The notes under the pieces: generated by a model
Seen by the model: only the letters and a program-made list of their open reading frames with translations
Told to the model about the DNA's origin: nothing
Databases searched by the model: none
Assembly (NCBI GenBank): GCA_017303635.1
Contig: JAFLCG010000002.1
Coordinates: forward strand, 344,918-408,917
Source: Anaerolineae bacterium
GTDB lineage: Bacteria > Chloroflexota > Anaerolineae > Aggregatilineales > Phototrophicaceae
DNA length: 64,000 nt
Reading direction: 5' to 3'
Made by a program: the position numbers and the translations under genes
Shown: in pieces, positions 22,434 to 40,010 of the stretch
How the letters are laid out: each line of letters starts with the position of its first letter
How positions within the stretch are numbered: the first letter of the stretch is position 1

Positions 22434-22601
22434 ATGCACTGATCTATCAGCCCCCAACGACGATAAAAATCACTGCTTGCCCCCGCATTTTGTCATCCTG
22501 AAATTCTGGTTACGTTGAGTACTATGTACTTATATCACCCAGGTTTATTTCACGTTCGTAATATCGCTGTTGAGCACTACATTAGTGAGAAGGAACACTT
22601 T

Positions 22602-23597
22602 ATGAAACGCAGTCTGGTCGTCGGTTTGGTCGTTGTCGGGCTACTCTCTACTTTCAGCGGTCTGGTGTTATACGCTCAGGATACGGGGCGTGAACAAGTC
22701 GTCAATGGCTTGTTCGCCACACTACCAGACGTCCCACCCATTCCTGAAGACAATCCGATGACGCCGGAAAAGATCGAACTCGGCAAGATGCTGTTCTTTG
22801 AACCGCGCCTTTCCGCCAGCGGCATCATTTCCTGCCACACCTGCCATAACCTCAGCCTGGGTGGTACCGATCGCTTACCCTCGTCGCTGGGCCACGACTT
22901 CCAGACTGGCGGGCGTAATGCGCCCACCGTCCTAAATGCCGCCTTCTTCAATCTCCAGTTCTGGGATGGACGCGCAACGGGTCTGGAAGAACAGGCGCAG
23001 GGCCCCATCCAGGCCGGTGTTGAAATGGCCATGCCTGCGGATCTGGCCGTCGAACGGATCGCCTCAATCGAAGGTTATCTACCATTCTTCCAGGCTGCTT
23101 TCCCTGATGAGGAAAATCCGATCACCTTCCTAAATATCGCCAAAGCCATTGCGACCTTCGAGCGCACCCTCATCACACCGGATGATGCCCTTGACCGCTA
23201 CCTACGTGGTGATGAGAGCGCCCTCTCTGCGGATGCCAAACGCGGCATGGAAATCGTCGTCCAGGTTGGCTGCGTCGCCTGTCACAATGGACCAATGCTC
23301 TCCACCGGCACCCTGATGCCTTTCAATCACGGCACCGACCTGGGTCTGGCGACGGTGACCGGTGAAGCCGCCGATGAACGGCTGTTCCGAGTCTCTACCT
23401 GGCGCAATGTATCCCTGACGGCCCCTTACTTCCATGATGGCAGCGCCGCTACCCTGGAAGATGCAGTGCGAACAATGGCGGTAGTACAGTTAAACCGCAC
23501 GCTGACTGATGAGGAGGTCTTCTATATCTTGGCCTTCCTAGAGTCACTGGTTGGGGATGCACCGGAAATCACTATTCCAGAACTCCCGGTCAACTAG
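22602..23597 (+). CDS. Di-heme cytochrome c peroxidase (CCP/MauG family)
   Basis: 331 residues. A signal peptide (1-25) exports the protein. Two c-type heme sites are present: CHTCH (after LSASGIIS) and CVACH (after VVQVG). The first half has the CCP signature GKMLFFEPRLS and the second FRVSTWRNVSLTAPYFHDG, so it is a normal bacterial di-heme peroxidase that reduces hydrogen peroxide with electrons from small cytochromes or related donors. ATG 22602 is chosen because AAGGA precedes it and the signal peptide begins here; an upstream in-frame ATG adds 29 residues. A terminator follows. Together with nrfHA it adds to the exported c-type cytochromes. Confidence 0.92.
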   Translation: MKRSLVVGLVVVGLLSTFSGLVLYAQDTGREQVVNGLFATLPDVPPIPEDNPMTPEKIELGKMLFFEPRLSASGIISCHTCHNLSLGGTDRLPSSLGHDFQTGGRNAPTVLNAAFFNLQFWDGRATGLEEQAQGPIQAGVEMAMPADLAVERIASIEGYLPFFQAAFPDEENPITFLNIAKAIATFERTLITPDDALDRYLRGDESALSADAKRGMEIVVQVGCVACHNGPMLSTGTLMPFNHGTDLGLATVTGEAADERLFRVSTWRNVSLTAPYFHDGSAATLEDAVRTMAVVQLNRTLTDEEVFYILAFLESLVGDAPEITIPELPVN

Positions 23598-26153: not shown

Positions 26154-27080
26154 ATGAGTAAAGAACGCATCCTCGTTGTGGAAGACGATGCCGATATTGC
26201 CAATATGCTGAAGATCTACTTCAGTGGTCAACATTATGAAGTGCAGATCGCCCCACGCGGTAATGACGCGCTGGTGATGACGCGCAAACAACTGCCTCAC
26301 CTGATTATTCTGGACATCATGCTGCCGGATATGAATGGGTACGATGTCTGCCGCGAACTCCGTATGACTACCCGTACCAGCCATATCCCCATCATCTTCC
26401 TGACTCAGAAAGATGACCGCAGTGACAAGATGTTCGGCCTGGAACTGGGTGCAGATGACTACATCACCAAGCCCTTCGATATTGAAGAGCTTAAACTCCG
26501 TGTGAAGAATGCTATCAACGCCTCAATGCGGACGATGAACCTAAACCCCGTTTCTGGCCTGCCCACAGGCCGTCTGATCGAGGACCATCTGCGCGAGTTG
26601 ATGCGAACCGACCAGACCTGGGCGTACATTGACCTGAAGATCAATCACTTCGATGCCTTTAATGAAGTCTACGGTTTCCTCAGCGGCGATGAAGTGCTCC
26701 GCTTCATGGCGCTGCTGTTGGGCGATGTGGTCGATCAGATGGGTACGGGTAATGATTATGTCGGCCATCCCGGGCGCGACAACTTCATGTTAGTCACGCA
26801 CTCGCCGGATTATCGCCAGCTTACGGACCGGTTGGTCGAACGCTTCAATGACGAAGTGCGCCAGCACTACTCCTTCATCGACCGGGAGCGCGGCTATATT
26901 CTGGCCCCGGCCAGCGCCGGGGAGCGCCAGGAACCACTGATGACTCTGGCCGCAGGCGCCGTATCCAACTCCACCTATCGCTTCTCGGATATACGGGAAA
27001 TCACTGAGCTGGCGGCTGAAGATCGGCGGCGCGGACTGACTGGGGAAGAACCCCCTCCGCCCATTCTGACGTCGTGGTAA
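26154..27080 (+). CDS. Response regulator with REC and degenerate GGDEF domain
   Basis: 308 residues. REC domain 1-125 with acidic pair Asp11/Asp12, phospho-acceptor Asp54 (ILDIMLPD) and Lys in ITKPFD. The output half (130-290) looks like a GGDEF diguanylate-cyclase fold: it opens NPVSGLPTGRLIED, where active enzymes have D-x-L-T-x-L-P-N-R, and the catalytic position reads HPGRDNFML instead of GGDEF. It should therefore not make cyclic di-GMP; it may bind a nucleotide or act by protein contact. Spacing from the STAS-like gene is 170 bases. Likely partner of the PAS kinase upstream or of the giant kinase downstream. Confidence 0.85.
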   Translation: MSKERILVVEDDADIANMLKIYFSGQHYEVQIAPRGNDALVMTRKQLPHLIILDIMLPDMNGYDVCRELRMTTRTSHIPIIFLTQKDDRSDKMFGLELGADDYITKPFDIEELKLRVKNAINASMRTMNLNPVSGLPTGRLIEDHLRELMRTDQTWAYIDLKINHFDAFNEVYGFLSGDEVLRFMALLLGDVVDQMGTGNDYVGHPGRDNFMLVTHSPDYRQLTDRLVERFNDEVRQHYSFIDRERGYILAPASAGERQEPLMTLAAGAVSNSTYRFSDIREITELAAEDRRRGLTGEEPPPPILTSW

Positions 27081-27219: not shown

Positions 27220-30200
27220 ATGAATCTGGGTGTATTCCTGCTCATTGGCGGCATCGTCATCATCGCCGGGCTGTATCTTTGGGCGCGGCAGCGCCAGAGC
27301 CTGGGGTATATTCCTCCTGTCGATGCACCAACTTCATTCAGCACATCCCCGGATGATGGCGATAATGCCATCATTGTCGCCCGTCAGCACGGGCAAATCG
27401 TCCATATCAACCCGCGCGCAATGGAGTGGCTGGGTCTGGATGGCGCTGACCTGAATTTGGAACAAGTCGCCAGTCACGTCAAACCTGCGGATAGCTTCCT
27501 CGATTTGTTCGCCCGGCAGGGTCAGGCTTCTTTCCAGATTGGCAGTCGCTGGGTGGAGGGAGCTTCTCACCTCATTCCCGGCAGTGTCGAACAGCGCATG
27601 GTCATCGTCATGCGGGAACTGGGTGGGGCTGGCAGCGCCACAGCCACAGCATCCGCATCCCTCGACCTTCGTCGTGTGATGCAGATCACGGATGAAATTG
27701 GCGAAACGGTCAACGCCAGCATGAGCAGCCAGCAGGCCCTCCAGGCGCTCCTGACCATCATCCGGAAGGCAATCCCCGCCAGCGCCGGTGAAATCTCGAT
27801 CTGGCATGAAGAGACACGCACCCTCACCCCGGACTCGTGGGTGGGTGAAGGCTCATACCTGGTTTCGCTGGCAGAGCGCGGCGGAGTCTATCAATACGGG
27901 GAAGGGATCAGCGGCTGGATTGCCCGACACCGGCGTCCCGTACTCGTCAGTGATGTCAGCGACCCTACAGCCATCCAACCGAAGTTCAGCAGCCAGTTCC
28001 ATAGTTTTGTGGGTGTGCCGCTCGAATTGGGCGAGCGACTGCTCGGCACCCTGGAGTTAGCCGATACCGAGGCAGGGCGCTTTCAACAGACTGACCTGGC
28101 CTTGCTCCAGGCCATCAGCAAACAGGTCGCTATCGCGATCTTTAATGCAGATCTGTACAGCCAGCAGGCACAGCGCATCAGTGACATGGCGAACCTGCAA
28201 AACGTCCAGTTGGACGAAGAAAACGCACATGATCCCCGCGCGGTCTTCGCCGTCCTTAGTCAACGGTTAGCCACGCTCAGTCATGCCCGTATCGCTGGCA
28301 TCCTGCTCTACGATGAAGCACGCCGCGCCCTGGTGCCACAAGCGCCGTTTCACGGCCTGCCGGAGCAGCTCATCCCGCGTCTAGCATTCAGCTTGACGGA
28401 CGGCAGCGATCCCCTTGATATTTGGGAAAACCGCCCCTACTGGCATACCAATGAAGTGCCGGAGGTCGAATGGCTCAATCAGGCGGGTCTGGCGGGTACG
28501 CTGGCTTCGGCAGGGATTCGCAGTTTGGCTCTCCTGCCCTTGGAAGTGGGCTCGCGGCGGATTGGCATGGCTTTCATCGCCAACCGTCAGCCCGGCGGCT
28601 TCAATAATCAGGATATTAAGGACATGCGCTTGCTGGTCGCTCAGGCGGCCATCGTCGTCCAGAATATCCGCCTGTTCCAGCGAGAAGCGCGGCAGGATGC
28701 CGAACTAGCCGGTTTACAGGAAATTACCCAGGCGATTGGCTCGCTGCGGCAGACCGAAGGGGAATTCTATTCGGATATCAACGGCCGTATTGCCCGGCTG
28801 ATGGATGTGCAGGTGTGCGGCATCCTGCTCTATGACGAGGCCAGCAGCCGCCTGCGTCCTCAGATTCCCTTCTTTGGGGTGGCGGATACCGACCTGAACG
28901 GCTACGGTATCGACCTGCTGCCCGATTCGCCCATGACCGCACTCTGGGATGAAGGGGAAACCTGGTTCGCCAACCGTGTCGAAGAAAACGCCATTGTTCA
29001 TGCCTCTAATCTGGCGGAGGTTGCCGCCCGACTGGGCTTCAAGCAGATGATGCTGGCCCCGCTGGCCGTCGGTGGACGAAAACTAGGCGTGGTACAAGTC
29101 TCTAACCGGCTGACTGGTGAGGACTTCACGGACAAAGACGGTCAGCTCCTCCAGATTTTTGCGACCCAGGCGGCTGCCATCATCGAAAATGCCCGCCTGG
29201 TGCAGGATGTCCAGCGCAGCGCAGATCAATCCAACCGCTTGCGAAATATCGCTGAACTCTCCGGCAAGATCCTGACGACTGAAGATTCATTCGCCCTGAT
29301 CCTGAATGAAATTTCAACCTTGCTGGATAGCCCAATCGTCTTCATCAACCAGTTGGAAACGCAAACCGGCGCGCTGGTAACCTATCCCCGCTATGTTTTT
29401 GGGGCGGCATTGGCTGAACCCATCCGGCAGGACATTTTCAGTCCCGGTTTTGAGTACAGCGTGGTCTTTTCCCAGAATTCCTTTTTTAGCAACAGCGTGC
29501 TGAAAGATCAGCGCGTGCTGGAAAGTTATCTGGATATTGCCCGGCAGATGGGCATCAATCGCGCCGTCATCGTCCCCTTGATCGTCGGTGATCGCAGCCT
29601 GGGCGAGTTGGGCGTTGCTAATCGTCCCGATGATCCCTATACCGAAGCCGATGTCGAATTGATGGAAGCGGTCGCTGCCCAGATCGGCGCGACCATCGAG
29701 CGTCTGCAATTGTACGAAGCCTCTGGCGCTAACCTCTCCCGCCGCGTGCAGGAGCTCGACGCCATATCGGCAGTCACCAACGAACTGACCCGCACGCTCG
29801 ATCTCGATTCGGTGCTGGAACGCATCCGTGAACACAGCATCCGGGCTACTCGCGCTGATGGCGGCACCGTCATCCTGCTGAAATCGCTGAGCGCCCTGGA
29901 AGATCCCCACCAACCCGAAGCACGTCAGCGGTATGGCCTCGAAGATCAGGGGCTGAACATGGCGGATATCGAGCGCAGCGCTTTCTTCGCTGGCTCGGAA
30001 ACGGTCACCGTCTTTAATTACGCCACCAGCAATCTGAAACCTTTGCCCCCCCAGGCCGAATCTGCCCTGGCAGTTGCCTTTTTCTACGAAGATCAGATCG
30101 TCGGTGTGCTGCATCTGTATCATCATGAGCCGAACCACTTTGATGATCGTGCCGCCTCCTTCCTGTTGACAATGGCGGCCAAGGCCTCGCTCGGCTACGG

Positions 30201-33200
30201 CAACTATGTGCGCTATCAGGAACAGTTGGAGAGCAATTCGCGCCTGCGCCGCCGTGCCGAACAGATCAAACAGATCTTCGAGATGGGGCAGATGATCCAG
30301 ACCAATACCAGTCTGGAAGACATGTTGGAAGGCACGCTCTATAACATTCAGATCGGCACGGGCTATGATCTGGGTGTGGCGCTGGTGCTGGATGAAACTA
30401 CCAATACCTTCAGCCGCCTTGCCCAGATGGGGATGCCGCTGGAAGCCTTTGAACGCAGCCGCTACAACACCATCAGCCTGCAGGACCTGTTGACCCTCAT
30501 GCGGCGGGATTACGCCATGAGCGAGTCCTTCTTCTTCCCGGCAGAGTCGCGTGCAGACTGGGCAACGGTGGATATTAAAGCGCTGGAAGTCGGTTCGGCG
30601 GGCATCCGTCCCATGCCGGAACCCACCAGTCCAGCAGATTGGCATCAGGGCGATCTGCTGCTGGTGCCGCTCAACGGCGCAGGCGGCAACTTAATCGGCC
30701 TGCTCACGCTCGAACAGCCCCAGGATCACCGCCGTCCGGATAACGCCGCCATCGAACTGCTGGAGATTTTTGCGCATCAGGCAGCGGGTTCATTGGAGAA
30801 CCTGCGCCTGTATCAACAGACGCAGCAGAATGCCGAACAGGAAGCCCGTCTGAATGAAATGGTGGAAACCATTTCCGGTACGCTGGTCGCCAGCGAGATC
30901 ATTGATGGATTGGTGCAGACCGTTGTTAAAGTGCTGCCCATCTCCCGGCTGACCGTCGCGCTGGAAGATTCTGAACGGCAGGGGATGGAGATCACCCGCC
31001 TGCGGATCCTGACCGATGGCACCATCGTCACCAATCAGGAGCATCAGAGTTATCCTGAAGGCACCGCGCTGTATCAGGCTTTCCGCAGCGGGCAGCATGT
31101 CCTCTACACTGCCGACTCACCCGAGATTGAAGATCTCTCCGATCTGCGTTCGCTGTACTTCCAGTACGGCGAACGGGCCTCGCTGCTCATTCCGCTGTTC
31201 TCCGCCGAAGGCCCGCTCGGTGCGCTGCACATGGGCAGCGACCATGACAGCGCCGCCCTCTTTGAAGAAAATCGCTCGCTGCTTGTGCGTATGGCGAAGT
31301 TGGCTGCCGTCGCAATTGATAATGCCCGCCTGTTCAATCAGGCGATGAACCTCCAGACCTTCAACCAGTCGGTAGTCCAGTCCATCCAGCAAGGGATTGT
31401 GGTACTGGATAACTCCGGGCGTATCCTGTCGATCAACGACTTCATGCGCCAGCGGTATGGCTGGGTCACGCGGGATGCGCTGCGGCAAGATCTGTTCGTC
31501 TATAGCCCGGAATTGGATTTCCTCAAAACCGATCTGCAATCTGTCCTGGAGCAAGGCGAGCCGGTCGAGCGTATCCGCCAAATCACATCCGATGGGAATG
31601 GGGCCTCTCTCGTCCGCAACTTCTATTCTTACCCGCTCAAGACTGCGGAAACCATTCGTGGTGCGGTCATCCTGGTCGAAGATAATACCGAACGCTACGA
31701 GTTGGAGCAGGACGTTGAGCGCCGCGCGAACCAATTGGCAGCGCTGACCGAGATCTCCAGCCGCATCACCGCGACGCTGGATCGTGCGGACGTGGTCAAG
31801 CTGGCACTGGAAGAGATGGCTAAGCTCGTCACGTTCGACTCGCTGACATTGTGGACACGGGTCGATCAGGATTTGTATCTGGAAGGTGCACGGGTTGGTG
31901 GAGCGACCATCGACCTCCAGCCGCATGACCGCAAACGCCTGCGGCTTTCCGGCCATCCCCGAATGCGCGAAGTGGTCGATACAGGCCGCGTCTTCCGCAT
32001 CAATAATCTGCTCGGTACCGACTCGCTGCCTTTTGAAACCAACGCCAAAAGCTGGATGGGTGTCCCCTTGCTGGATCGTGGCGCTGTCGTCGGCGTGATC
32101 GCGCTGGCAAAAGATAGTCCACGCTTCTTCGATAACCAGTCCGAAGTTGCGGCGTCGAACTTCGGCAATCAGGTCGCTATTGCGCTCGCCAATGCCAGCC
32201 TGTTTGAAGAAGCCCAGTACCGCACCGAGCGCCTCAGCCTGATCAACCGTGTGTCGGTGGCGCTGGCGCAATCGCTGGACAGCGAAAATATTCTGGAAAT
32301 TGGTCTCAAGGAGATCGGTCAAAGCCTGGATATGCACCACGCCCAGGCCTGGATCTTTGACCGGGATGCCAACGTGGCCCGCGCCATCGTCACCCTGCCA
32401 CGCGGCGACGCCCCGCCGGATGAAGTCATCCCGCTGCGGGATAGCAGCCTCTTTATGCGGTTACGAGCCAGCAGCCAGCCAATCATCGTTGAAGATGTCA
32501 CCCGGCTGGAACAGGATGATCCAGTCTCCGGTGCGCTGACCGGGCGTGAACTCCACGCCTTTGCCCTCATTCCGATGATCGTCGGTGGGCAAGTCATCGG
32601 TGCCTTTGAGCTGATGGATGATAATCTCTCGCGGCAGTTCCGACCGGAACAGATCGAACTGGCGCTCATCATCGCCAATCAGGCCGCGATTGCCGTCCAG
32701 AACACCAATCTGTTCGAACAAACCCTCATCCGCAGCCGTGAACTGGAAACCCTGCTGGAAGCCGCCCAGGCCACTGCCCTCACCCGTGACCTGCCGGAAG
32801 CCTTCAGCCGGGTGACGGACCTGATCCTCAACGCCCTGGAGATGGATACCTGTTCCGTCATGCTGTGGGATAACGTCGAGGATGTGCTGGAGGTCGCGCT
32901 GGATGTGAGCCGCTATGGGGCCACCAACGGAACAGCAGCCACTCAGCGCCTATCGCTGCAACAGTATCCGCTGCGACGACGTTCGATGGACGAGCGCGAA
33001 ATCGTCGTGGTCCGGGTCGAAAATCCCCTCTCGGATGCCACTGAAGTCGCCGGGATGCGCGAACGGGGCGAAGCGCTGCGGCTGCTGCTGCCACTCGTTA
33101 CCCGCGACCAACCGATCGGCATGATCGTCAGCGCGCTCAAGCGCCCGAATCCGGCTTTTGGTCACCGGGAAGTCCGCTTGGCACAGGCGCTCGGTGCCCA

Positions 33201-35442
33201 GGCAGCCATCGCCATTCAGAATGCCCGCCTCTCGACCCAGACTGCCGCCCTGGTCGAACAGAGCTTCTACATCAACAACCTGGCCCAGTCGATCTCGTCA
33301 GCCCTCTCAATTGATGACATCGTCGAGATCGTCCGCGAGCAGGTGCCGCGCCTGATTGACGCCGCCGAAATGTACCTGGGACTCTATGATCCCAAGTCGC
33401 ACAACATCTTCTTCCCGATGGCGACCCGTGGCGAGACTGAGTTCCATCTGCCACAGCGCAGCCTGGGCAATGATGAAGCGTCGTTTATCATCAAGAAGCG
33501 TCGTTCGCTCTCGCTGGGCAGCGGCAACGTCGACGCCGATGACCTGCGCTCCAACCTGGGCATCGTCAGCGCGGAAAACAACGCCCGCAGTTACCTGGGC
33601 GTACCGATTGTGGCAGGCGATCAGGTCATGGGTGTGCTGGCAGTACGTGACCTGCAAAACCCCCGGCGCTTCGGCATCAATGACGAGCGCCTGCTGATGA
33701 CCGTCGGCACGCAGTTAGGCGTCGCTATCCAGAATGCCCGCCTGTTCGAGCAGGTGCGCGGCTTCGCGGCTGAACTCAACCTGCGCGTTGAAGAACGCAC
33801 CACCGAACTCCAGACCGAGCGTGACCGGTTGGATACGCTCTACCAGATCACCTCCGAACTCACCCGGTCACTGGACATGGAGCGTGTGCTCAACCGCGCC
33901 CTGGGCATGATCGTCAGCGCCGTCAGCGCGGATGATGGCGTGATCATGCTGCTGGATCCCATGTCGGATAGCCTGCTGACGCGGGCCGCCCTGCATCCTG
34001 TCGGCGTCGGTCAGGTACACCCCGCCCAGAGTATCGCCAATTACATGCTGATGACCGATACCGGTGATCCGCTGCTGCTGGCCGATCATTTGGAAACCCA
34101 GCCCTACTGGGATAACACAATACCAGGAGCGGATGCCTTCCACAGTGCGCTGGCAGTCCTGCTGGAGAGCGGTGATGATCCGCAGGGTGTGCTGGTGCTG
34201 CTCAGTTCTCGCACGCGCCTCTTCACTGATCCCCAGGTCAAGCTGGTCAATGCCGCTGCCAATCAGGTCGCGGCCGCTATCAACAATGCCGACCTCTACC
34301 AACTCATCCGTGAACAGGCGGAAAGCCTCGGCAAGCTGCTCCGTACCGAGCAGGAAGAAGCCGAAAAGAACTCAGCCATCGTCGAAGGCATTGCCGATGG
34401 CATCATGCTGGCGGATGCCGATGGAGTCATCATTCAGTTCAACAGTGCCGCCGAGCGCATGCTGGAACTGGATCGGGATGAAGTGGTCGGGCAGGCCCTC
34501 TTCAAACTGACGGGTATCTTTGGCGCTTCGGCCTCACGCTGGGCGGATGCTGTCGCCCGCTGGTCGGCCCAACCGGAAGCCCAACCTGCCGGGTTCTTCC
34601 TGGAAGAAAAGCTCGATCTGGGGCGGCGCATCGTCAATGTCCATCTCTCGCCAGTCAGCATCGGGGAGCAGTTCCTCGGCACTGTCTCGGTATTCCGCGA
34701 TGTGACTAAGGAAGTCGAAGTCGACCGCATCAAGAGCGAATTTGTCTCCAACGTTTCGCACGAACTCCGCACGCCGATGACCAGTATCAAGGGCTATGCC
34801 GATCTGCTGCTGATGGGCGTGGCGGGTCAACTGCCGGATGCACAAAAGGGCTTCCTGGAGAAGATCAAGTCGAATGCGGATCGCCTCAGCCACTTAGTCG
34901 ATGATCTGCTCAATATCTCCAAAATCGACTCTGGTGAGCAGATGTCGCTGGAAATGCTCGACCTGCGGGAAGTCATCAACAGCATTATCCAGCAGCATGA
35001 GCAGATCGCGGATCACGCTAAGAAGAACATGCGGGTGCGGATCGATGTGGAACCCGGCCTGCCCCTCATCCCGGCAGACCCGCATCACCTGAAGCAGATC
35101 CTCGATAACATCATCGATAATGCCTACAACTACAGCTATGCCGATGGTCTGATCTCGATTGAAGCCAAGGTCGAACGGCCTGCCGGTGACCGCGTCATCA
35201 TCTCGGTCAAGGATACCGGCATCGGCATTCCAGAGAACTTCAAAGAGCGCATCTGGGGCCGCTTTGAACGCTACGATGAAAACGCACTGGTGATGGATGT
35301 CGCCGGGACGGGTTTGGGTCTATCAATTGTTAAAGAACTGGTTCGACTGCATAATGGAGAAGTATGGTTTGAGTCGGAATTCGGGCATGGTTCGACCTTC
35401 TACATCGCCCTCCCGATCAACCAGCCACAGCAAGCCATGTAG
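27220..35442 (+). CDS. Giant sensor histidine kinase with twelve GAF domains
   Basis: 2740 residues. N-terminal membrane helix (2-22), a PAS-like domain (about 45-130), then twelve GAF-like sensor domains, each ending in the same kind of helix (variants of QVAIAIxNARLF) at about residues 310, 487, 660, 826, 995, 1191, 1365, 1655, 1825, 1998, 2168 and 2351. A PAS lies between GAF7 and GAF8 (about 1391-1491) and another after GAF12 (about 2386-2500). HisKA has His2514 in SNVSHELRTPM; HATPase_c follows at 2620-2735 (DNIIDNAYNYS, DTGIGIP, GTGLGLSIV). GAF domains bind cyclic nucleotides, bilins or heme; ligands here are unknown. First gene of an operon ending in thiamine pyrophosphokinase. Confidence 0.92.
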   Translation: MNLGVFLLIGGIVIIAGLYLWARQRQSLGYIPPVDAPTSFSTSPDDGDNAIIVARQHGQIVHINPRAMEWLGLDGADLNLEQVASHVKPADSFLDLFARQGQASFQIGSRWVEGASHLIPGSVEQRMVIVMRELGGAGSATATASASLDLRRVMQITDEIGETVNASMSSQQALQALLTIIRKAIPASAGEISIWHEETRTLTPDSWVGEGSYLVSLAERGGVYQYGEGISGWIARHRRPVLVSDVSDPTAIQPKFSSQFHSFVGVPLELGERLLGTLELADTEAGRFQQTDLALLQAISKQVAIAIFNADLYSQQAQRISDMANLQNVQLDEENAHDPRAVFAVLSQRLATLSHARIAGILLYDEARRALVPQAPFHGLPEQLIPRLAFSLTDGSDPLDIWENRPYWHTNEVPEVEWLNQAGLAGTLASAGIRSLALLPLEVGSRRIGMAFIANRQPGGFNNQDIKDMRLLVAQAAIVVQNIRLFQREARQDAELAGLQEITQAIGSLRQTEGEFYSDINGRIARLMDVQVCGILLYDEASSRLRPQIPFFGVADTDLNGYGIDLLPDSPMTALWDEGETWFANRVEENAIVHASNLAEVAARLGFKQMMLAPLAVGGRKLGVVQVSNRLTGEDFTDKDGQLLQIFATQAAAIIENARLVQDVQRSADQSNRLRNIAELSGKILTTEDSFALILNEISTLLDSPIVFINQLETQTGALVTYPRYVFGAALAEPIRQDIFSPGFEYSVVFSQNSFFSNSVLKDQRVLESYLDIARQMGINRAVIVPLIVGDRSLGELGVANRPDDPYTEADVELMEAVAAQIGATIERLQLYEASGANLSRRVQELDAISAVTNELTRTLDLDSVLERIREHSIRATRADGGTVILLKSLSALEDPHQPEARQRYGLEDQGLNMADIERSAFFAGSETVTVFNYATSNLKPLPPQAESALAVAFFYEDQIVGVLHLYHHEPNHFDDRAASFLLTMAAKASLGYGNYVRYQEQLESNSRLRRRAEQIKQIFEMGQMIQTNTSLEDMLEGTLYNIQIGTGYDLGVALVLDETTNTFSRLAQMGMPLEAFERSRYNTISLQDLLTLMRRDYAMSESFFFPAESRADWATVDIKALEVGSAGIRPMPEPTSPADWHQGDLLLVPLNGAGGNLIGLLTLEQPQDHRRPDNAAIELLEIFAHQAAGSLENLRLYQQTQQNAEQEARLNEMVETISGTLVASEIIDGLVQTVVKVLPISRLTVALEDSERQGMEITRLRILTDGTIVTNQEHQSYPEGTALYQAFRSGQHVLYTADSPEIEDLSDLRSLYFQYGERASLLIPLFSAEGPLGALHMGSDHDSAALFEENRSLLVRMAKLAAVAIDNARLFNQAMNLQTFNQSVVQSIQQGIVVLDNSGRILSINDFMRQRYGWVTRDALRQDLFVYSPELDFLKTDLQSVLEQGEPVERIRQITSDGNGASLVRNFYSYPLKTAETIRGAVILVEDNTERYELEQDVERRANQLAALTEISSRITATLDRADVVKLALEEMAKLVTFDSLTLWTRVDQDLYLEGARVGGATIDLQPHDRKRLRLSGHPRMREVVDTGRVFRINNLLGTDSLPFETNAKSWMGVPLLDRGAVVGVIALAKDSPRFFDNQSEVAASNFGNQVAIALANASLFEEAQYRTERLSLINRVSVALAQSLDSENILEIGLKEIGQSLDMHHAQAWIFDRDANVARAIVTLPRGDAPPDEVIPLRDSSLFMRLRASSQPIIVEDVTRLEQDDPVSGALTGRELHAFALIPMIVGGQVIGAFELMDDNLSRQFRPEQIELALIIANQAAIAVQNTNLFEQTLIRSRELETLLEAAQATALTRDLPEAFSRVTDLILNALEMDTCSVMLWDNVEDVLEVALDVSRYGATNGTAATQRLSLQQYPLRRRSMDEREIVVVRVENPLSDATEVAGMRERGEALRLLLPLVTRDQPIGMIVSALKRPNPAFGHREVRLAQALGAQAAIAIQNARLSTQTAALVEQSFYINNLAQSISSALSIDDIVEIVREQVPRLIDAAEMYLGLYDPKSHNIFFPMATRGETEFHLPQRSLGNDEASFIIKKRRSLSLGSGNVDADDLRSNLGIVSAENNARSYLGVPIVAGDQVMGVLAVRDLQNPRRFGINDERLLMTVGTQLGVAIQNARLFEQVRGFAAELNLRVEERTTELQTERDRLDTLYQITSELTRSLDMERVLNRALGMIVSAVSADDGVIMLLDPMSDSLLTRAALHPVGVGQVHPAQSIANYMLMTDTGDPLLLADHLETQPYWDNTIPGADAFHSALAVLLESGDDPQGVLVLLSSRTRLFTDPQVKLVNAAANQVAAAINNADLYQLIREQAESLGKLLRTEQEEAEKNSAIVEGIADGIMLADADGVIIQFNSAAERMLELDRDEVVGQALFKLTGIFGASASRWADAVARWSAQPEAQPAGFFLEEKLDLGRRIVNVHLSPVSIGEQFLGTVSVFRDVTKEVEVDRIKSEFVSNVSHELRTPMTSIKGYADLLLMGVAGQLPDAQKGFLEKIKSNADRLSHLVDDLLNISKIDSGEQMSLEMLDLREVINSIIQQHEQIADHAKKNMRVRIDVEPGLPLIPADPHHLKQILDNIIDNAYNYSYADGLISIEAKVERPAGDRVIISVKDTGIGIPENFKERIWGRFERYDENALVMDVAGTGLGLSIVKELVRLHNGEVWFESEFGHGSTFYIALPINQPQQAM

Positions 35443-35476: not shown

Positions 35477-35854
35477 ATGGCGAACATACTGGTAGCTGAA
35501 GACGAAAAAGACATCCGCGAACTCATCAACTTCACGCTGATGTTCGCAGGGCATACGGTGACCACGGCGGCCAACGGGGCCGAGGCAGTCGAACTGGCCC
35601 CCAAAGTCATGCCGGATCTCATCATGATGGATGTGCGCATGCCGAAGATGACCGGCTATGAAGCCTGCCGGGAAATGAAGCAGAATGACACCATCAAGCA
35701 TATTCCCGTGGTTTTCCTGTCGGCGAAAGGCCAGGATGAAGAAATTCAGACGGGTATTTCGGCGGGGGCAGTCGCCTATATTCTGAAGCCCTTCGCGCCG
35801 GAAGACCTGACCAAACAACTCGCGGCTATCCTCGAAAAACACGGAATCAAGTAG
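35477..35854 (+). CDS. CheY-like single-domain response regulator
   Basis: 125 residues, a receiver domain only. Acidic pocket Glu8/Asp9, phospho-acceptor Asp52 (IMMDVRMPK), the switch Ser in VFLSAKG and the conserved Lys in LKPFAPE. It sits 34 bases after the giant kinase gene and is the obvious phosphorylation target. With no output domain, it must pass the signal by protein contact; the hydrolase-fold protein encoded 4 bases downstream is a candidate partner (inference). Confidence 0.92.
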   Translation: MANILVAEDEKDIRELINFTLMFAGHTVTTAANGAEAVELAPKVMPDLIMMDVRMPKMTGYEACREMKQNDTIKHIPVVFLSAKGQDEEIQTGISAGAVAYILKPFAPEDLTKQLAAILEKHGIK

Positions 35855-35858
35855 GTTC

Positions 35859-36872
35859 ATGAGCGCCATCACCCTCAGCGGTGACCTGATCCATTACGAA
35901 GTCCACGGGCGCGGTCGTCCGGTGATTCTGCTGCATAGCTGGGTGGGCTCCTGGCGCTACTGGGTGCCGACCATGCAGCAGTTGGCCGTCAAGTACCGTG
36001 TCTACGTGCCGGACTTGCTCGGCTTTGGGGATTCCGCCCACAACCCCAACCACTACACCATCGACCATCAGGTGCAGGTGCTGGTGGACTTCATGGAGCA
36101 GATGGGTTTCCAAAAAGCTGGTTTTGTCGGGCATGGGCTGGGGGCGCTGGTCACCACGGCCTTCGCCCGCGCCTACCCGGATAAAGCACCGCGCATCATG
36201 CTGGTGAGCGCCCCCTTGTTTGACCCCGGTGGCCTGGAGCGCCGCGTCCCGGCAGCCCGCCGTCCGGTTGAAATCAGTCAGGCGATGGCGACCAACTTTG
36301 AGGGCACCATCATGAGTTCCTCGGTGCGGGCTGCCATGCTGGAGCTTCAGCGCAGCCGCCAGGGGGATGAAACCATTAGCAGCGCCGCCGCGCTGGCCGC
36401 GCTCGATGACAGCCTGAGCAAAGCGCCCAAACACAACCCCTTCACCGAACGCGATGGCCTGCTGAGTCTGACGCCGGAAGCCATGCTCAACCGCTGCTTC
36501 CGCCGCACCGACCCGATCTATGAAAAGCTGGCGCTGGATCTGCCGCGTACCGATATGGCCTCGATCCGCACCAGCGTGAGCGATTTTGACTCCGGTCGCT
36601 TCCTGGATACCATCCGCCTGCTGCCGATGCCCAAGATCATCGTCCACGGGGAAGATGATCCCCTGCTGCCGGTGCCAACCGAAAGTGTGCTCAACTACCT
36701 CTCGGTGGAAACCGAGCAGATCGCGCCGCCGGTCACCATCATCGCGCCGGATGTGCGCCACTTCCCCATGCTGGAGTATGAACGCTTCTCCCGGTTGGTG
36801 AATGATTTCCTCGAAGTCCCTGACCTCAGCACGCTGGAAGTGAAGGAACGTTGGAAGCGCCGCACCCGCTAA
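35859..36872 (+). CDS. Alpha/beta-hydrolase-fold protein lacking the nucleophile
   Basis: 337 residues. Oxyanion-type start VILLHSWVGSWRYW (22-35) and the strand-5 nucleophile elbow FVGHGLGALV. The elbow normally reads G-x-S-x-G, but here it is G-H-G-L-G with Gly93 in the nucleophile position. The acid (HGEDDPLLP) and the His (DVRHFPMLEY) of the triad remain. It should not work as an ordinary serine hydrolase and may be a binding protein, as alpha/beta-fold signalling partners can be (RsbQ, the companion of RsbP, has this fold but keeps Ser). It starts 4 bases after the CheY stop, in the kinase operon. Possibly a non-ester chemistry remains. Confidence 0.8.
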   Translation: MSAITLSGDLIHYEVHGRGRPVILLHSWVGSWRYWVPTMQQLAVKYRVYVPDLLGFGDSAHNPNHYTIDHQVQVLVDFMEQMGFQKAGFVGHGLGALVTTAFARAYPDKAPRIMLVSAPLFDPGGLERRVPAARRPVEISQAMATNFEGTIMSSSVRAAMLELQRSRQGDETISSAAALAALDDSLSKAPKHNPFTERDGLLSLTPEAMLNRCFRRTDPIYEKLALDLPRTDMASIRTSVSDFDSGRFLDTIRLLPMPKIIVHGEDDPLLPVPTESVLNYLSVETEQIAPPVTIIAPDVRHFPMLEYERFSRLVNDFLEVPDLSTLEVKERWKRRTR

Positions 36873-37519
36873 AAGCGCTCATTTTCGCCAATGGAGATCC
36901 CAACGACGGCCCGCTGGTTCGGCAGGTTCTGGCGTCGGCGGATGCTGCCTGGATCATTGCAGCCGATGGTGGTGCCCGTCAGGCGGCATTCTTTGGCTTC
37001 CAACCACAGCTCGTCATCGGTGACCTGGACTCGCTGACCGCTGCCGAAGTTGCCGCACTGGAAGCGGAAGGTGTCGCTATCCACCGCGCCCCTCCGGAAA
37101 AAGACGAAACCGATCTGGAGCTGGCGCTGCTCCACGCCGCCGCTCAGGGCGTGCGCTGGATTCGCATCATCAGCGGCATTGGCGACCGCATTGACCAGTC
37201 GCTCGGCAACCTCTATCTGATGGCGCTCCCTGTCCTGGCAGGGATGGATGTACGGCTGGTGGCCCGCAATCAACAGACCTGGTTGATGCGCCCCGGCCTT
37301 AATCCGGTGGATGGCGCGCCAGGGGATACCCTCTCGCTGCTGCCGGTGGGCGGGGACGCGGTCGGGATCCGCACCGACGGCCTGCATTACCCCCTGCGGG
37401 ATGAAACCCTGCGCTTTGGCCCCGCTCGCGGCATGAGCAATGTGCTGACCAGCCCTCAGGCCCAAGTCACCCTCGCCTCCGGCCTGCTGCTGGCGATCCA
37501 CACGCTGGGCCGGGCCTGA
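36851..37519 (+). CDS. thiN: Thiamine pyrophosphokinase
   Basis: 222 residues. Transfers pyrophosphate from ATP to thiamine to give thiamine diphosphate. The TPK signature is clear: IIAADGGARQA (36-46), QLVIGDLDSLT and EKDETDLELALLHA, with acidic residues for magnesium. A beta-rich C-terminal domain (about 140-220) binds thiamine (HYPLRDETL, GMSNVL). The start is TTG 36851, overlapping the hydrolase gene by 22 bases with AAGGA close before it, so translation is coupled to the signalling operon. I see no TPP riboswitch, expected only if it had its own promoter. Confidence 0.88.
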   Translation: MEAPHPLKALIFANGDPNDGPLVRQVLASADAAWIIAADGGARQAAFFGFQPQLVIGDLDSLTAAEVAALEAEGVAIHRAPPEKDETDLELALLHAAAQGVRWIRIISGIGDRIDQSLGNLYLMALPVLAGMDVRLVARNQQTWLMRPGLNPVDGAPGDTLSLLPVGGDAVGIRTDGLHYPLRDETLRFGPARGMSNVLTSPQAQVTLASGLLLAIHTLGRA

Positions 37520-38267: not shown

Positions 38268-38290
38268 ATCCTTCGCTGCGCTCAGGATGA
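38268..38290 (-). repeat. CATCCTGAGCGCAGCGAAGG dispersed repeat
   Basis: On the minus strand TCATCCTGAGCGCAGCGAAG continues to GAT, with ATCCT/AGGAT arms. This short sequence type is very widespread in genomes of several phyla (recalled knowledge). Its TGA supplies the stop codon of the FGE-domain gene. Confidence 0.65.
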
Positions 38291-39625
38291 GCGGGCGCAA
38301 CGAAATCCGTAATTCTCGTTCTCGGCAGTGGGGCTGTTCGTGGTGCTGGGGACCGTACGCAGGTTATACGATGGAGAGTAGAACGCACCGCCCCGCAGCA
38401 CGCGAAGATCAGTTCTATTTGCCAAGTTTTCGCGTCCATCAGTTGCACGGTACGGATAGGATTGGGCTAGGCTACTGACCCATTCCCAGACATTGCCACT
38501 CAAATCCAATGCCCCCACCCAGGATGCGCCCGCCGGGTAGCTGCCGACTGGAGCCGTCGCCGCGTAGCCGTCATCATTTTCCTGATTGACGTAATCATAG
38601 CCCGAAGCCCAGCGTGCAGCACCACAATTGCTGTCACAATGGTTGGCACGGGAGCCATCAAAGGTATTCCCCCATGGGAAAAGTAGTTCATCCGGGCCAC
38701 GGGCGGCGTACTCCCATTCGGCTTCGGTCGGTAGTCGGGCATCCCGCCATGTACAGTAGTTCTGCGCCTGCACCCAGTTTACGTTATTGATGGGCTGATC
38801 GGGTTGGGTCGAATAGTTTGAGTCGGGCGTCACCTCGCAGTCACCGGCAGTCACGCACTGCTGATACATCGCCCGCGTCACTTCGGTCTGGTCGAGCCAA
38901 AAACTCGCCAGAGTCTGGGTATTGCCGCCTACCGGGATGCGTTCAGCCTCGAACTGATCGCGCTCACAGGTGGCGTTGTTATCAACCGTCTGCTGGCACA
39001 TAGCAAAACCCTGGTCAATCTGCGCCTGAGTGCTGCCCATGTCAAAGCTACCCGCTGGCACAAGCACCATCGTCACACCATCGAAGTCTTGCGTGATGGG
39101 TGTCCAGGCGGCATTCCCGGCGCGGTAGTCATAGCCCGTCTCCGCCGCGTATGTGGCTTGCAGTGGACTCAATGTCGGCGTGCGCGTCGGCATCGCCGTC
39201 AAGGTCGCAGCCTCAGCAGTTTGTTGGGCAGCCCGCGTGCCGGTAGCGATGGCATCCACCGTCGCGTTGATAGTGGTCAGGGTTTGACCGGCTTCAAACG
39301 TCTGGGTCAAGCCGACGATTTGCACCGGATCGAACGCGGTAGGCTCAATGCCGGGTGTCTGGCTAGGGATAACGGCAACCGCCGTCGTGGGGGTAGGGTT
39401 CAGTGAAGACGGCAGGTTGTTCAACAGCGTCAGCACCACCCCCAGCAGTGCTATCACCGCCAGCAGTGCGCCCCCGATCTGCCAGTTACGGCTGGGGGTC
39501 GCTGGGGACGGCTTTGGCTCCGGCAACCTGACTTCTACAGGCGTAGGTTCCACCTCCAGCCCCAGCGCCCGTTTGATCTGGCGGATTAAACGCGCTGTAT
39601 CGGCCTCAACCTGCCCTGGCATCAC
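38282..39625 (-). CDS. FGE-sulfatase-domain membrane protein, 3' part of a frameshifted TIR-FGE gene
   Basis: 447 residues. The first 30 (VEADTARLIRQIKRALG) are the segment that normally joins a TIR domain to what follows. A membrane helix lies at about 48-70, then a Thr/Ala-rich linker and a formylglycine-generating-enzyme-like domain (about 190-447; DGVTMVLVPAGSFDMGS, DQTEVTRAMYQQC, RLPTEAEWEYAARG, GNVWEWVSS, LRVLRGGAFYS, GFRCARS). Such domains often bind sugars or act as non-catalytic sensors in Chloroflexota fusions. The upstream TIR gene ends 10 bases before, and the frame can be restored by one base. The start (GTG 39625) is therefore probably not a true start. The stop codon lies in a dispersed repeat. 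Confidence 0.75.
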   Translation of the reverse strand: MMPGQVEADTARLIRQIKRALGLEVEPTPVEVRLPEPKPSPATPSRNWQIGGALLAVIALLGVVLTLLNNLPSSLNPTPTTAVAVIPSQTPGIEPTAFDPVQIVGLTQTFEAGQTLTTINATVDAIATGTRAAQQTAEAATLTAMPTRTPTLSPLQATYAAETGYDYRAGNAAWTPITQDFDGVTMVLVPAGSFDMGSTQAQIDQGFAMCQQTVDNNATCERDQFEAERIPVGGNTQTLASFWLDQTEVTRAMYQQCVTAGDCEVTPDSNYSTQPDQPINNVNWVQAQNYCTWRDARLPTEAEWEYAARGPDELLFPWGNTFDGSRANHCDSNCGAARWASGYDYVNQENDDGYAATAPVGSYPAGASWVGALDLSGNVWEWVSSLAQSYPYRATDGRENLANRTDLRVLRGGAFYSPSYNLRTVPSTTNSPTAENENYGFRCARSS

Positions 39626-39635
39626 AAATTCACCA

Positions 39636-40010
39636 TTATAGGAAGGGCAGTTGGCTCAGGCTGCGCGGCAGTTCATCCGCTGTGGGCATGGTTGCACCGT
39701 TGACCAGGACCGGAATCACAATTTTGTCATGGCGCAGCGCCATCTCGGCCTCAATGCGGACGAGATCATCGAGCTTATCCAACCGCCGACTACCATCCTT
39801 GCCCGTGATCGTGACCCATTGGGTGCCGATCACGATCAGGACAACCTGTGCCGCCAGCAGTTCGCGCTCGACAGTGGCGCGGAAGTCCTTGCCAACCAGA
39901 ATGCCTTCAACATCCATAAAAACGATGAAATGCGGCTTTAGAGCCGCCAGCAGTTGTAGCGCAGTTTCACGGCTGTCATCGCGGCGATAGCTGATGAAGA
40001 TGCGGGCCAT
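39636..40010 (-). CDS. TIR-domain protein, 5' part of a frameshifted TIR-FGE gene
   Basis: 124 residues, nearly all TIR fold: box 1 ARIFISYRRDDS, VFMDVEGI, VLIVIGTQW and VRIEAEMALR, where a Glu sits near the position of the catalytic Glu of NAD-cleaving TIR domains. It stops at SLSQLPFL, where related fusion proteins read on toward DFEADTARLIRQI. The next frame contains just that continuation (YNGEFVMPGQVEADTARLI), so the gene is interrupted by a one-base change at about 39626-39640. TIR domains act in NAD+ hydrolysis or as adaptors; a TIR fused to an FGE-like domain suggests sensing. Own minus-strand promoter. Confidence 0.8.
   Translation of the reverse strand: MARIFISYRRDDSRETALQLLAALKPHFIVFMDVEGILVGKDFRATVERELLAAQVVLIVIGTQWVTITGKDGSRRLDKLDDLVRIEAEMALRHDKIVIPVLVNGATMPTADELPRSLSQLPFL

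Follow-up and report, generated by a model that had tools for sequence, protein, structure and literature searches.

We analysed a 64,000-nucleotide stretch of DNA from an Anaerolineae bacterium of the phylum Chloroflexota (contig JAFLCG010000002.1, positions 344,918 to 408,917; hereafter the window), in which one gene codes for a protein with an alpha/beta-hydrolase fold that has no nucleophile. In our estimate there is about an even chance that this protein works without the nucleophile as a dedicated partner, for ligand sensing or coupling, of the giant PAS-GAF-PAS kinase encoded upstream. Among its orthologs the nucleophile position is free to vary, the pocket His and Asp are kept and the genes stand in a regulatory context, a combination which speaks for a role in ligand sensing or coupling that needs no covalent catalysis. 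The relative roles of binding and cleavage are debated for hydrolase-fold receptors such as RsbQ, D14 and KAI2, and for RsbQ the choice between Model 1 and Model 2 was left open (PMC3183031). A natural family mostly free of the nucleophile, yet keeping its pocket residues and a kinase partner, would lend itself to testing catalysis-free sensing, and it gives a first clue to the function of a conserved signalling cluster of several genes in a little-studied phylum. The gene and the positions which carry this reading are the following:

35859..36872, + strand: gene of the hydrolase-fold protein without nucleophile, 337 residues (PF00561, PF12697; AlphaFold model; structural matches)
36129..36143, + strand: elbow GHGLG, with Gly93 at the position of the nucleophile Ser (sequence; states in orthologs)
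36657..36659, + strand: Asp267, catalytic-acid position (Asp in 127 of 130 aligned rows, sister family included)
36759..36761, + strand: His301, catalytic-histidine position (His in 130 of 130 aligned rows, sister family included)
36843..36869, + strand: basic C-terminal motif KERWKRRTR (alignment of order-level orthologs)

The fold predicted for this protein is fully enzyme-like, with the acid and the His conserved, as judged from the structure model and the alignment. The Pfam match to Abhydrolase_1 has an E-value of 6.5e-21, the AlphaFold model reaches a mean predicted local distance difference test (pLDDT) score of 88, and its structural matches are hydrolases, with Z of about 27 across 230-250 residues. 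The elbow reads VGHGLGA, with Gly93 encoded by ggg (36135-36137), so that the G-x-S-x-G pattern of catalytic Ser alpha/beta hydrolases is replaced by GHGLG; Asp267 lies in HGEDDP and His301 in RHFPML. The original prediction, made from the sequence alone, had described this very constellation of a Gly elbow with Asp and His retained, and on this point it was correct. Eukaryotes also have non-catalytic hydrolase folds devoid of a working triad, such as NDRG, neuroligin and neurotactin; these belong to other Pfam families, and membership of the NDRG or cholinesterase-like families was rejected since the window protein has no Pfam match to them. An epoxide hydrolase or a haloalkane dehalogenase was rejected as well, the elbow of the window protein carrying Gly and no Asp.

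Searches at the level of genus, family and order gave matches in 61 of 61 genomes and an ortholog in most of them. All same-genus orthologs whose elbow was covered read GHGLG, and the nucleophile column of the 53 aligned orthologs from the three levels contains 38 Gly, 8 Ser, 4 Asp and 3 Ala, while the elbow His is present in 53 of 53 and Asp267 and His301 each in 52 of 52 scorable rows. With a broader search, which extended to Anaerolineales and Chloroflexia (among them Roseiflexus, Oscillochloris and Herpetosiphonaceae), the set grew to 120 orthologs from Anaerolineae and Chloroflexia, with Gly in 88, Ser in 15, Asp in 9, Ala in 6, Asn in 1 and Thr in 1 (here and below, counts come from open reading frame (ORF) calls on non-independent loci, and rows were merged only when the protein sequences were identical). 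As a control, a sister hydrolase of the same genomes reads GHSMGG in 20 of 20 cases. A tree of 130 rows was built from these 120 orthologs and 10 members of the Ser sister family. Parsimony on the ortholog tree places Gly at the root and counts 14 changes at the nucleophile position, four of them to Ser, against none at His92, Gly95 and His301 and two at Asp267; the ancestral state and the numbers of changes are approximate, because the tree comes from a quick search, has many weakly supported forks and offers no single branch that separates the sister family from the orthologs.

Neither a sequencing error nor recent decay accounts for the Gly elbow, because the same state is common to the genus and to two classes. 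The nucleophile was probably lost by descent, with Gly ancestral among the orthologs. Conservation of the elbow, which the original prediction proposed to check, holds for Gly in most orthologs, although orthologs with G-x-S-x-G, which it had named as contrary evidence, do occur (the 15 of 120). One could then argue that we are dealing with an ordinary active hydrolase family undergoing scattered decay of the active site, the Gly forms being degenerate copies. The occurrence of Ser, Asp, Ala, Asn and Thr at this position and the inferred changes from Gly to Ser, at least four in number, would fit this view, but Gly appears ancestral and dominates in both classes, conservation is strong in the rest of the sequence and the sister family keeps its Ser in every case checked, which makes this explanation very improbable.

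Going by the pattern of conservation, the nucleophile is dispensable for the retained role of the gene, and the pocket His and, three exceptions aside, the Asp are not. The constancy of His (130 of 130 rows) and Asp (127 of 130) next to a varying nucleophile, together with the enzyme-like fold, could also mean that the protein is an enzyme of another chemistry, in which the His-Asp pair would activate water or substrate as a general base, with no covalent nucleophile involved. Such a general-base mechanism has been proposed for cofactor-free oxygenases and lyases of the alpha/beta-hydrolase fold. The regulatory gene context speaks against it, as do three orthologs (L165, L169 and L176) which combine an Asp elbow with Asn at the catalytic acid (D267N); in those three the substitution is also evidence against epoxide-hydrolase-like Asp chemistry, which is doubtful there. 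A further argument comes from the S102G mutant of AidH, carrying the equal change in a related fold, which is inactive and still binds the intact substrate (PMC3532132). We therefore regard an enzyme of another chemistry as rather improbable. The AidH mutant (structure 4g8b) resembles the window protein in its Ser to Gly exchange at the elbow, its conserved His and its intact fold, with substrate bound uncleaved; it differs in being a laboratory mutant of an acyl-homoserine lactonase with no signalling role.

Conservation is not limited to the pocket. In the aligned order-level orthologs, Trp332 and Arg334 at the extreme C-terminus are invariant, and so are M1 and A3, which places the termini among the best-conserved parts of the protein. 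The region of residues ~131-190 of the window protein is modelled with low confidence, and two Ser-elbow orthologs (L045:4887-6605 and L093:6001-7575) have a very long low-complexity stretch rich in Pro, Ala and Thr at the position of the lid. These features would suit a structural adaptor, in which the fold serves as a docking piece organising the kinase or the receiver, for example through the N-terminal segment and the basic C-terminal tail, the old pocket remaining free of ligand. The long lid stretches were also counted in favour of the sensing reading. The orthologs retain His301, Asp267 and the oxyanion-loop His26 nearly without exception, residues for which a mere scaffold has no use, and an adaptor role thus seems unlikely to us, if less so than another chemistry.

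The kinase partner proposed for the hydrolase-fold protein is defined by the gene order of the locus, which comprises upstream and downstream of the hydrolase gene:

26154..27080, + strand: response regulator with REC and GGDEF-like domains, 308 residues, upstream gene of the module (Pfam PF00072, PF00990)
27220..35442, + strand: giant histidine kinase, 2740 residues (Pfam; sequence and model for the N-terminal PAS; orthology across classes)
27358..27624, + strand: N-terminal PAS-fold domain of the kinase, residues 47-135 (AlphaFold pLDDT 82.5; structural matches)
34732..35421, + strand: HisKA and HATPase_c of the kinase (PF00512, PF02518)
35477..35854, + strand: lone receiver, 125 residues, with intact phosphorylation site Asp52, Ser82, Lys104 (PF00072; conservation in homologs)
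36851..37519, + strand: thiN, thiamine diphosphokinase, TTG start (TIGR01378; adjacency in relatives)

The hydrolase gene starts 4 nucleotides past the stop of the receiver ORF and its 3' end overlaps thiN by 22 nucleotides, as the original prediction had described. The kinase has the HisKA and HATPase_c domains of a histidine kinase, preceded by an N-terminal hydrophobic helix, a PAS domain, about 10-11 GAF matches and a second PAS domain (from Pfam, sequence and model), and it is predicted to be membrane-tethered. The structural matches of its N-terminal PAS fold are nearly all PAS domains, the best with Z of about 11. The receiver has the acidic pair, phospho-Asp, Ser/Thr and Lys of CheY-like receivers, and Asp52 and Lys104 are present in 100 of 100 distinct homologs. 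A gene similar to the REC-GGDEF-like one also stands ahead of the kinase in L066, L072, L122, L210 and L211.

Where the upstream sequence of an Anaerolineae locus spans 1 kb or more, kinase and receiver are both present in 99 of 105 cases; two Ala-bearing loci (L119 and L121) lack the kinase and have only a more distant regulator upstream, of REC-GGDEF type in L119. The kinase stands next to the hydrolase gene or one gene off in 18 of 18 Chloroflexia rows, and in 17 of 18 there is no receiver between the two, the kinase abutting or overlapping the start of the hydrolase gene, as in L107, where the kinase stop and the hydrolase start share the sequence ATGA. Because of these 17 rows, the most constant partner of the hydrolase, as far as gene order tells, is the giant GAF kinase, the receiver being a second, Anaerolineae-wide partner, and a receiver acting as sole partner is ruled out. 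The original prediction of a non-catalytic partner for a CheY-like receiver therefore needs a correction: loss of the nucleophile by descent and linkage to two-component genes both hold, the partner of first rank being the kinase. No fusion of the hydrolase gene with the receiver or the kinase gene was noticed among the loci examined, where no systematic search for fusions was made.

The kinases of the two classes were also compared with each other. When the end of the Roseiflexus kinase was compared with the window genome, the window kinase ranked first of 85 matches (202 against 171 bits). Conversely, the end of the window kinase scored 202-229 bits with most Chloroflexia kinases and at most 147 bits with its own paralogs; the short locus L112 gave only 140 bits. 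Judging from these scores, the kinase partner is orthologous across both classes and not just any kinase.

The fourth gene is less faithful. The window thiN scores 158.6 bits with TIGR01378 (cut-off 76.4), and thiN lies downstream of the hydrolase gene in at least 56 of 108 Anaerolineae loci, overlapping it or within 60 nucleotides in 38, counts which are minimum values, since some loci are cut short. Same-genus thiN genes in L066 and L211 have a GTG start at the equivalent overlapping position. In some Anaerolineae, including Anaerolineales, thiN is followed by genes of a thiamine-type ATP-binding cassette (ABC) transporter (L099:7690-11460, L122:7624-11555, L210:17598-18653); the L210 gene codes for a thiamine-type ABC substrate-binding protein (TIGR01254), and those of L099 and L122 were assigned by reading the sequence. 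A module devoted to thiamine, with a hydrolase-fold protein that detects or processes some thiamine-related metabolite and a functional coupling to thiN, would agree with this adjacency and with the transporter gene of L210. We nevertheless find it hardly credible: thiN is next to the hydrolase gene in none of the Chloroflexia rows, where the pairing with the kinase is equally tight, and several families within the order of the window have it on a different contig. Since thiN accompanies the hydrolase gene in only part of the Anaerolineae loci (56 of 108) and not in Chloroflexia, and sometimes heads a set of thiamine ABC-transporter genes, synthesis of thiamine pyrophosphate looks like a co-transcribed neighbour, the thiamine link being secondary. 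Thus, of the four-gene order put forward originally, with thiamine pyrophosphate synthesis in the same transcript, the kinase pairing extends to both classes, the receiver to nearly all Anaerolineae loci, and thiN is looser. A DUF402 protein is encoded after thiN at L211:18771-19253, and similar ORFs were seen in L066, L072 and L085 by sequence reading.

The nearest known system is RsbQ-PAS, represented by RsbQ-RsbP of B. subtilis, in which the hydrolase RsbQ touches the N-terminal PAS of RsbP, the F-alpha helix of PAS domains of this class making the contact, and the signal may be either occupancy or catalysis, 'Model 2' standing for sensing by occupancy with no need for catalysis (PMC3183031). 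The two systems share several traits: histidine kinases are among the outputs reported for RsbQ-PAS, along with diguanylate cyclases (PMC3183031), and the window kinase has an N-terminal PAS fold, here behind a hydrophobic helix. Differences are as clear. Signalling by RsbQ requires an intact Ser-Asp-His triad, whereas the window protein has Gly93 and only 15 of 120 orthologs have Ser; the RsbQ gene directly precedes that of the PAS protein, whereas the hydrolase gene is downstream of the kinase in the window and its relatives; and the partner of RsbQ is usually a short PAS-coiled-coil-output protein, whereas here it is a predicted membrane-tethered kinase with ~10 GAF domains. RsbQ homologues share a mean identity of 48% within the RsbQ-PAS class. 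RsbQ structures were not among the matches listed by phmmer, hmmsearch, Foldseek and VIA-align, and no direct sequence comparison with RsbQ was made, so that the two may be related all the same; the main text of the RsbQ-PAS paper does not mention Chloroflexi (PMC3183031). We treat the module as a variant of the RsbQ-PAS arrangement and do not claim membership for it, given the triad requirement of RsbQ, the upstream place of its gene and the missing direct comparison. The plant receptors KAI2 and D14 offer a second parallel, as hydrolase folds used in perception whose signalling is separable from hydrolysis (PMC6331613), the D14 D218A mutant signalling without it (PMC6331613). A KAI2-like structure (6azb) is among the fold matches of the window protein, but KAI2 and D14 keep the Ser triad and act through an F-box protein, and the relation is at the level of the superfamily only.

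For the hydrolase-fold protein as ligand-sensing partner of the kinase, we infer complex formation, ligand binding and a direction of signalling that would run as follows. The pocket, which His301, Asp267 and the oxyanion-hole loop still line, would bind a small ligand without cleaving it; its occupancy would alter the contact between hydrolase and kinase, possibly at the N-terminal PAS or at a GAF/PAS domain, and the changed contact would alter autophosphorylation of the kinase. In Anaerolineae the signal would be handed to the adjacent receiver, and in Chloroflexia to a receiver located elsewhere. The module would then be a natural case of Model 2, sensing by occupancy and not by catalysis. 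Several observations weigh against this scheme. Membership of an operon is no proof of contact between hydrolase and kinase. In about four sublineages Ser appears to have returned beside an otherwise complete triad, and catalysis may matter there; four Ser-bearing Anaerolineae loci (L031, L032, L047 and L094) have no adjacent kinase and receiver. Finally, the D14 mutants S97A and H247A lost the ligand-induced response (PMC6331613), and therefore loss of the Ser is not automatically harmless for sensing.

The module is part of a conserved Anaerolineae cluster, which was read over ~20 kb at two loci (L210:1798-17595 and L211:1028-18757). Its order begins with DUF4388, a Ras-like GTPase, the Ser sister hydrolase, a hexapeptide protein and a reductase resembling PigE and acyl-ACP reductase (with scores below the curated cut-offs), and continues with the REC-GGDEF regulator, the giant kinase, the receiver, the hydrolase and thiN. 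L210 additionally carries a V4R protein. The L211 genes which had no profile scan were named from their likeness to L210, and its receiver and hydrolase genes, covered by a minus-strand ORF in the ORF list, were established via L014/L064 on the same contig. In the window genome the sister hydrolase lies on a different contig. A description of the cluster was not found in the literature searched, which comprised open-licence papers only. A bolder proposal, which we put forward as possible but short of probable, is that of an ancient sensing device of two Chloroflexota classes, in which a nucleophile-free hydrolase fold, related to the Ser sister often found in the same cluster, would bind a metabolite uncleaved and directly gate the giant PAS-GAF kinase.

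Two other observations concern the surroundings of these genes. Upstream of the signalling genes, the window codes at 22515-23597 (+ strand) for a protein with a di-haem cytochrome c peroxidase (MauG-type) domain. At 38282-40010 (- strand), an FGE-sulfatase-domain ORF and a TIR-domain ORF stand head to tail with a gap of ~10 nucleotides and may be a single gene that a frameshift has interrupted, or else a unit of two genes.
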